NCBI RefSeq assembly: GCF_016887565.1 | Contig: NZ_CP069396.1 | Span: forward strand, 1,019,001 to 1,083,000 | Direction of reading: 5' to 3' | From: Archangium violaceum | Lineage (GTDB): Bacteria > Myxococcota > Myxococcia > Myxococcales > Myxococcaceae | DNA length: 64,000 nucleotides | Made by a program: the position numbers and the translations under genes | Shown here: one piece after another, positions 44,415 through 44,752 of the stretch | How the letters are laid out: the number at the start of each line of letters is the position of its first letter | Position numbering within the stretch: position 1 is the first letter of the stretch | Notes under the pieces: generated by a model | What the model was told of the DNA's origin: nothing | Seen by the model: the letters and a program-made list of their open reading frames with translations, nothing else | Database searches by the model: none

Positions 44415-44752
44415 GGCGTACCTTTCGCGCGGGCCTTCCGGAGCACTCTGGGGTCTCCCCGTCCGCTTGCATTCCGGTTCTCGCATGGAGGGCCCGGCGA
44501 AGATGTGATGCGTTCCACTGGTTGGATGTGGAGCGCATCACAGTGTCCGCTGGGGGGGTGGCTCACGCTGTGCCAACCCATGAAGCGGTCACACGCGTGC
44601 TCGCCTGTTGTGTATCCAGGGGTCCGTGCCTCGGGGTGTCTGGGAAACCGTTGCTGTCACAACGGGGGACGGTCTCCTCCCTGGTTCGGGGCCAAGGCTC
44701 CGGGCAGAATGAATCCCGGTGGGGGCAGGTCCCACCATGAAAGTCACGAGCC
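44415..44752. other. Divergent promoter region of the two cNMP-binding genes
   Basis: 338 bp with no gene. The main feature is the mirrored CRP-like palindrome at 44504-44542, about 90 bp upstream of the TPR/cNMP gene and 210 bp upstream of the Crp/Fnr gene. The remainder shows no clear motif. Confidence 0.5.
44504..44542. promoter_or_regulatory. Mirrored pair of CRP-like sites within one 39-bp inverted repeat
   Basis: Arms of 15 bp (44504-44518 and 44528-44542) match at 14 of 15 positions around a 9-bp centre. Read another way there are two CRP-type sites: TGTGATGCGTTCCACT (TGTGA-N6-CCACT, 44504-44519) and TGTGGAGCGCATCACA (TGTGG-N6-TCACA, 44527-44542), 23 bp apart centre to centre. The consensus is TGTGA-N6-TCACA. 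The adjacent Crp/Fnr protein is the obvious candidate binder. Confidence 0.6.

Follow-up and report, generated by a model that had tools for sequence, protein, structure and literature searches.

Paired CRP-like sites between a Crp/Fnr gene and a TPR/cNMP-binding gene of Archangium violaceum: one copy of a genome-wide element with fixed spacing

The closest described counterparts of the locus analyzed here are the CRP-dependent promoters of Escherichia coli. There, class II promoters have the CRP centre at -41.5, and class III promoters of the deoC type are protected near -40 and -90 (PMC5957442). Among the myxobacteria, MrpC of Myxococcus xanthus is a member of the CRP family that activates some genes and represses others, and according to the same publication no ligand is reported for it (PMC8844925). 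A search of the open-access literature revealed, among the matches listed, neither a myxobacterial cAMP-Crp regulon nor a paired CRP architecture with a 23-bp period. The cAMP receptors of the myxobacteria are largely uncharted; the element described below points to a likely receptor, to its DNA code and to a list of its targets, and once these three are named the role of cAMP in these bacteria becomes testable promoter by promoter.

The sequence analyzed is a stretch of 64,000 nucleotides (the window) from the A. violaceum genome, a 13.2-Mb single contig designated G000; G000 to G005 are the genomes of the genus. An earlier note on this DNA had pointed to two CRP-like sites 23 bp apart between a Crp/Fnr gene and a TPR/cNMP gene and to a 15-bp inverted repeat matching at 14 of 15 positions, and both observations are confirmed (Table 1). 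The element (TGTGA-TGCGTT-CCACT, GGTTGGA, TGTGG-AGCGCA-TCACA) is 39 bp long (16+7+16) and agrees with the consensus at 17 of 20 positions; the centres of its sites are 23 bp apart, and the arms of the repeat (44504-44518 and 44528-44542, 15 nt each and 9 nt apart) are 93% complementary. The pair pattern, with at most three mismatches, matches once in the window versus 0.00 expected from 100 dinucleotide-preserving shuffles. The note's reading of the motif as CRP-type is supported by the sequence, and the mirror-image repeat is likely to be a pair of docking sites for a regulator of the cAMP-receptor type. The flanking genes are also as it described them, the Crp/Fnr protein having cNMP_binding and HTH_Crp_2 domains and the other protein two cNMP_binding stretches; the TPR matches of the latter are weak, just under Pfam's cut-offs. 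The TPR gene probably starts at M25 (44414) and not at 44486, because the corresponding upstream stretch of G005 meets a stop after MRKPE; the longer frame from 44486 begins inside the predicted promoter.

Table 1. Features at the crp and TPR/cNMP genes (positions within the window)
Feature	Position	Strand	Basis or remark
Crp/Fnr-family regulator (Crp-A), 228 aa	44753..45439	+	Pfam, relatives, tree
TPR/double-cNMP-binding protein, start M25, 411 aa	43179..44414	-	Pfam, ortholog alignment
Paired CRP-like element	44504..44542	.	sequence and pattern search
CRP-like site 1, TGTGA-N6-CCACT	44504..44519	.	sequence
CRP-like site 2, TGTGG-N6-TCACA	44527..44542	.	sequence
Predicted -10 hexamer CACGCT, crp	44564..44569	+	predicted from the regulon rule; inferred
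Predicted -10 hexamer GAGAAC (weak), TPR/cNMP gene	44477..44482	-	inferred
Second promoter-like block, GGGCAGAATG	44702..44711	+	51 nt 5' of the crp ATG

The earlier note had also proposed a motif scan of the genome for further targets. We searched 59 genomes, including that of the window, for TGTGA-N6-TCACA-N7-TGTGA-N6-TCACA with up to three mismatches, and used the reversed pattern as a control. G000 contains 22 copies of the pair versus none of the reversed pattern; altogether there are 143 copies in 14 of the 59 genomes, and the control has just two matches, both in genomes without pair copies. The notion of a self-contained cNMP module is not borne out, since the copies of G000 lie upstream of many unrelated genes. 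A profile of the element (R1), built from 42 of 45 oriented sides (excluded were a side located within a called gene and, for two elements already represented, the other side), 12 of the 42 being from G000 and including the window's own copy, recovers 27 distinct loci in G000 at E <= 0.05. The window copy scores 2.6e-6 towards crp, the orientation used for training, and 0.0016 in the direction of the TPR gene. R1 also has matches at E <= 0.05 in 18 of the 45 genomes without the element, the best being 5.8e-4.

The 23-bp spacing is fixed. Among 49 exact GTGA-N6-TCAC pairs found at any gap from 2 to 32 bp in the six genus genomes, 23 have the 9-bp gap that corresponds to this period, 11 have a gap of 6 bp and the remaining 15 are spread over the other gaps; in 8 of the 11 gap-6 pairs both sites read GTGAC-N4-GTCAC, which is a different motif. 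Columns outside the search pattern are enriched too, with G at -1 and C at 0 (0.67 each versus an assumed background of 0.34). As a separate observation, GTGAC-N4-GTCAC constitutes a second class of tandem palindromes, mostly of 20-bp period (G000:C1:5689730-5689799 and 67942-67976); gap-6 pairs of this type are present in five of the six genus genomes, and these repeats look like the operator of a different dimeric regulator.

The base composition of the element and its position relative to genes were counted in the 69 elements of G000, G002, G003 and G005 (the other 74 of the 143 were left out), with gene calls from our own simple GC-frame caller. A called gene start lies nearby and points away from the element in 60 of the 69, versus 215 of 1215 random positions, and only 9 elements are inside a called gene, versus 999 of the 1215. 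The called gene is on one side only in 39 cases, on both sides in 22 and on neither in 8. Among the one-sided copies a -10-like hexamer, YAnnnT, starts at +22 on the gene side in 19 of 39, the mean over offsets being 0.60; A occupies +23 in 28 (p = 3e-13) and T occupies +27 in 20. The same hexamer is found at +22 in 5 of the 39 opposite sides and in 15 of the 44 sides of two-sided copies, and in 26 of the 69 elements neither side has both A23 and T27. If YAnnnT at +22 is read as a -10, the start falls at about +34 and the two site centres therefore at -41.5 and -64.5. Counted in this manner from the -10-like box, the centre of a CRP consensus site falls, at the level of the whole regulon, at -41.5 relative to the predicted start, which would be the position of a class II activator. 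A GGCA block near +20 is, by eye, suggestive of a sigma-54 promoter, for which the spacing is GG-N10-GC; this spacing does not fit, A23/T27 fits a -10, and the candidate was rejected. Counts from a genome scan for a single site plus a -10 were discarded: in such a scan the second site contributes its own CA at +22/+23 and confounds the result.

Applied to the window, this rule places the predicted crp hexamer at +22 to +27 from the element, with a start site near 44576 and a leader of about 177 nt. On the TPR side the start site is predicted near 44470, with a leader of about 56 nt; the candidate hexamer there has A23 and lacks both Y22 and T27, and in the seven TPR orthologs that carry the element A is present at +23 in five and T at +27 in one, so that a -10 fits poorly. 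Blocks resembling GGGCAGAATG occur, as judged by eye, upstream of several crp orthologs.

We consider it quite probable that cAMP-Crp, either Crp-A or its paralog, binds the element as paired dimers and activates a regulon that includes the TPR/cNMP gene and, in some lineages, crp itself. The repeat would then consist of two CRP operator sites, one next to the other, in a promoter of the class II activator type. A cAMP-bound dimer, the product of the adjacent crp gene or of the paralog, would occupy the gene-proximal site at about -41.5, a second dimer would sit back to back with it at about -64.5, and both together, presumably in a cooperative manner, would recruit RNA polymerase to a weak -10. 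The symmetry of the pair allows a single copy to serve divergent genes; the window copy would drive the TPR/cNMP-binding gene and probably crp too, and the same architecture would operate at about two dozen promoters of G000. The TPR/cNMP protein would be among the targets, and it may itself bind part of the same ligand. The geometry also bears on an unlikely alternative, in which the pair is a repressor operator and Crp dimers on both sites block the crp and TPR promoters, a form of autorepression. The proximal site would indeed overlap the -35 region of both divergent promoters, and the second promoter-like block 51 nt from the crp ATG could be an unregulated promoter; however, the exact spacing to the -10-like hexamer (19 of 39) is something that an activator needs, whereas repressor sites need no fixed offset, and at the -35 place the gene-side profile shows, by eye, the end of the site and GC-rich bases with no likeness to TTGACA.

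Activation by a cAMP-Crp is consistent with the properties of the Crp-A protein. It combines a CNB domain (PF00027, 1.2e-26) with HTH_Crp_2 (PF13545, 8.7e-15), as does the cNMP-responsive branch of the Crp/Fnr family, and it has both the Glu/Arg/Ser of the phosphate cassette and an RExxxR/K recognition helix, roles that we assign by the residues of E. coli Crp. With three outgroup rows excluded, all 25 crp relatives have the pocket FGE..RS and the helix RES[TAV]N[RK]. A paralog elsewhere in the genome, Crp-B, is 69% identical, and of the eight PF13545 matches of G000 these two proteins alone have both a helix of this kind and a cNMP pocket. In the tree, the Crp-A and Crp-B proteins of Archangium, G032 and G015 form two supported clades, and both Crp copies of G019 and G033 fall outside them. 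An element at G000:C1:12196899-12196937 lies 3' of the crp paralog and upstream of a histidine kinase gene; near-identical copies of it exist in all six genus genomes, and the side that faces the kinase lacks a -10-like box at +22 in G000.

Close crp orthologs (E <= 1.3e-89) are present in 13 of the 14 genomes with the element and in none of the 45 without it (best 4.7e-42); related lineages share ancestry, and this co-occurrence is therefore not independent evidence. The exceptions are G027, which has two pairs and no close crp ortholog, and two Myxococcus genomes outside the 59, which have the ortholog and no pair. These same exceptions are what favours a rather improbable alternative, that another dimeric regulator with a CRP-like motif binds the element and the flanking crp is a bystander. 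Against it stand the presence of crp in 13 of the 14 genomes and of a close ortholog in 0 of the 45 others, and also the third strong HTH_Crp_2 protein of G000, which has SRSFVSTL in its recognition helix and no Arg in its pocket. One of the G027 pairs (G027:C1:2517492) matches at 19 of 20 positions and could be either chance or the site of another regulator.

In the relatives the element accompanies the TPR/cNMP gene. The element is kept in all seven TPR orthologs of at least 60% identity (G000, G005, G003, G004, G002, G032 and G018), at an estimated 89-135 bp 5' of the aligned TPR start and with 16 to 20 of the 20 positions; it is absent at 11 TPR homologs of 40-52% identity. Among double-cNMP genes of less than 60% identity it is present at four: one adjacent to crp in G033, and one paralog each in G000, G005 and G002. 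Identity among the seven ortholog elements is 0.83 in the half-site columns and 0.46 in the others. At crp the element is found within 500 bp upstream in 6 of 13 orthologs (G000, G005, G015, G019, G033 and G034), and thus in 2 of the 6 of the genus; within the same distance it is absent from the other seven, which include the four sister species G001-G004, from all 10 crp paralogs and from both Myxococcus crp genes. Chance was controlled with dinucleotide shuffles for the crp-upstream scan and mononucleotide shuffles for that of the TPR orthologs. Among the six crp genes with the element, YAnnnT is at +22 on the crp side in G000, G019 and G033, is off by one in G015, fits only on the side away from crp in G034 and, by eye, does not fit in G005; the shared copy of G033 fits on both sides. 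By this comparison of sequences the conserved partner of the element is the TPR gene and not crp, and an element confined to, and conserved in, the interval between the two genes was not what we found, given the 22 copies of G000 and the absence upstream of crp in G001-G004. The earlier note had held that loss of the repeat from close relatives that keep both genes would count against its proposal. Such a loss is seen at crp; at the TPR gene the repeat persists in G002, G003 and G004 (16 to 17 of 20), where the two genes are about 4 kb apart. Two Myxococcus species have just one CRP-like site between crp and the double-cNMP gene, and here too +22 to +27 is occupied by a hexamer of this type, TAGGTT or TAAGTT. 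That the 15-bp inverted repeat is an RNA or DNA hairpin (terminator, attenuator or recombination site) is extremely improbable and was rejected, since the complementarity of its arms, 14 of 15 in the window, is not conserved (the six other TPR orthologs have elements with 8-11 complementary positions of 15), the N6 spacers of the 69 elements complement at 2.26 of 6 positions versus 2.06 in mismatched pairs, which is near chance, and two sub-threshold Rfam matches in the stretch fall elsewhere; judged on the sequences, the 14-of-15 hairpin is incidental.

The suggestion that the TPR protein senses the ligand is half plausible from its residues. In an alignment of 19 rows, of which that of G005 was unreadable because reading began upstream of its stop, the Glu (FGE) of CNB1 is kept in 18 of 18 readable rows and its Arg in 16, whereas none of the 18 has an Arg at the equivalent place of CNB2.

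The genes beside the other elements of G000, with the side served by each provisionally assigned from gene calls and the genes identified by Pfam, include a second double-cNMP protein, a TssB/VipA type VI secretion gene and a P450-TetR-cyclase gene run; further neighbours are CDP-alcohol phosphatidyltransferase, arginase, kelch, GH114, OmpA, CHAT and PAN-domain proteins, among others. Two elements (G000:C1:12802519 and 12808787) flank the run of P450, TetR and AAA/class III cyclase genes; the centre of one element is about 98 bp from the P450 ATG, with a caspase-like gene on its other side. The side served here is uncertain; if the cyclase belongs to the regulon, it would complete a feedback loop. 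Six paired elements are clustered within about 24 kb (G000:C1:4690234-4713811) around the TssB/VipA gene. A strong element at G000:C1:4474047-4474085 is located directly 3' of a LamB-type porin gene, and similar-looking copies, judged by eye, are present in the other five genus genomes.

The view that both neighbours belong to one cyclic-nucleotide locus gains support from the relatives. In G001-G004, crp and the TPR/cNMP gene flank two class III nucleotidyl cyclase genes, and the roughly 4 kb between them encode a protein kinase-receiver-cyclase and an FHA-GAF-cyclase (identified by Pfam in G001 and G002, by similarity in G003 and G004). In G032, G015, G019, G033 and G034 crp has one or both of these cyclases as neighbours, which brings the genomes with class III nucleotidyl cyclase genes next to crp to 9 of 13. 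There is no similar cyclase in the whole G000 window or in 5.5 kb at G018; the remaining two of the 13, G005 and G008, are represented by short flanks only, and G005 was left out of the comparison. Neither Myxococcus crp locus (7.7 kb each) has such a cyclase. The best alignments of the FHA-GAF cyclase are to bacterial adenylate cyclase domains, and its DKF/DEF motif has K where one listed relative reads E; we take this Lys to mark the use of ATP. G000 has 23 class III cyclase domain matches; its FHA-GAF cyclase is elsewhere in the genome, at about G000:C1:3,728,778-3,730,358 (76% identical over residues 1-527), and the full-length kinase-receiver-cyclase was not seen in 16 G000 stretches that cover 17 of the 23 matches. 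In G001 the TPR gene is reduced to its C-terminal half (211 residues), directly after the cyclase, and the 11 kb at this crp/TPR locus contain no paired element of at least 16 of 20.

A more comprehensive reading, which we offer tentatively and find slightly easier to doubt than to accept, joins a paired-dimer cAMP-Crp regulon, an ancestral cyclase-Crp-TPR locus and an origin of the pairing after the split from Myxococcus. Archangium-type myxobacteria would possess a regulon of obligate paired-dimer, sometimes two-way promoters with Crp at -41.5 and -64.5. Its core locus would once have held the kinase-receiver-cyclase and the FHA-GAF-cyclase as makers of cAMP, Crp as the receptor and the double-cNMP TPR protein as a target that feeds back on the signal; the pairing would have arisen after the divergence from Myxococcus, in which one site is retained at the corresponding position. 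An arrangement with one CRP dimer at -41.5 and another fixed back to back with it at -64.5 would, to our knowledge, be an unusual activation geometry and, if true, worth structural study.

The resemblance to an E. coli class II promoter lies in the CRP consensus half-sites and in a proximal site at about -41.5 from the predicted start. The differences are that here a second site is fixed 23 bp upstream, at about -64.5, a region normally bound by the alpha C-terminal domain, and that the -10 is YAnnnT in a GC-rich host. With the class III CRP promoters the element shares the presence of two CRP sites at one promoter; theirs are about 50 bp apart, whereas here the sites are back to back with a 7-bp linker, and there is no sign of a CytR-like partner at the paired elements. 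Crp-A resembles MrpC in being a myxobacterial regulator of the CRP family; the third strong Crp-type protein of G000, which we guess to be MrpC, differs from Crp-A in both recognition helix and pocket. Crp-A also matches PDB 3d0s/3i54, presumably the Crp of M. tuberculosis, and Vfr over most of its length, cNMP domain and HTH included, and these are remote relatives. What the literature searched did not provide is the variant proposed here, a fixed double site used across a genome-wide regulon; the parts from which it would be assembled, Crp and the class II geometry, are known ones.
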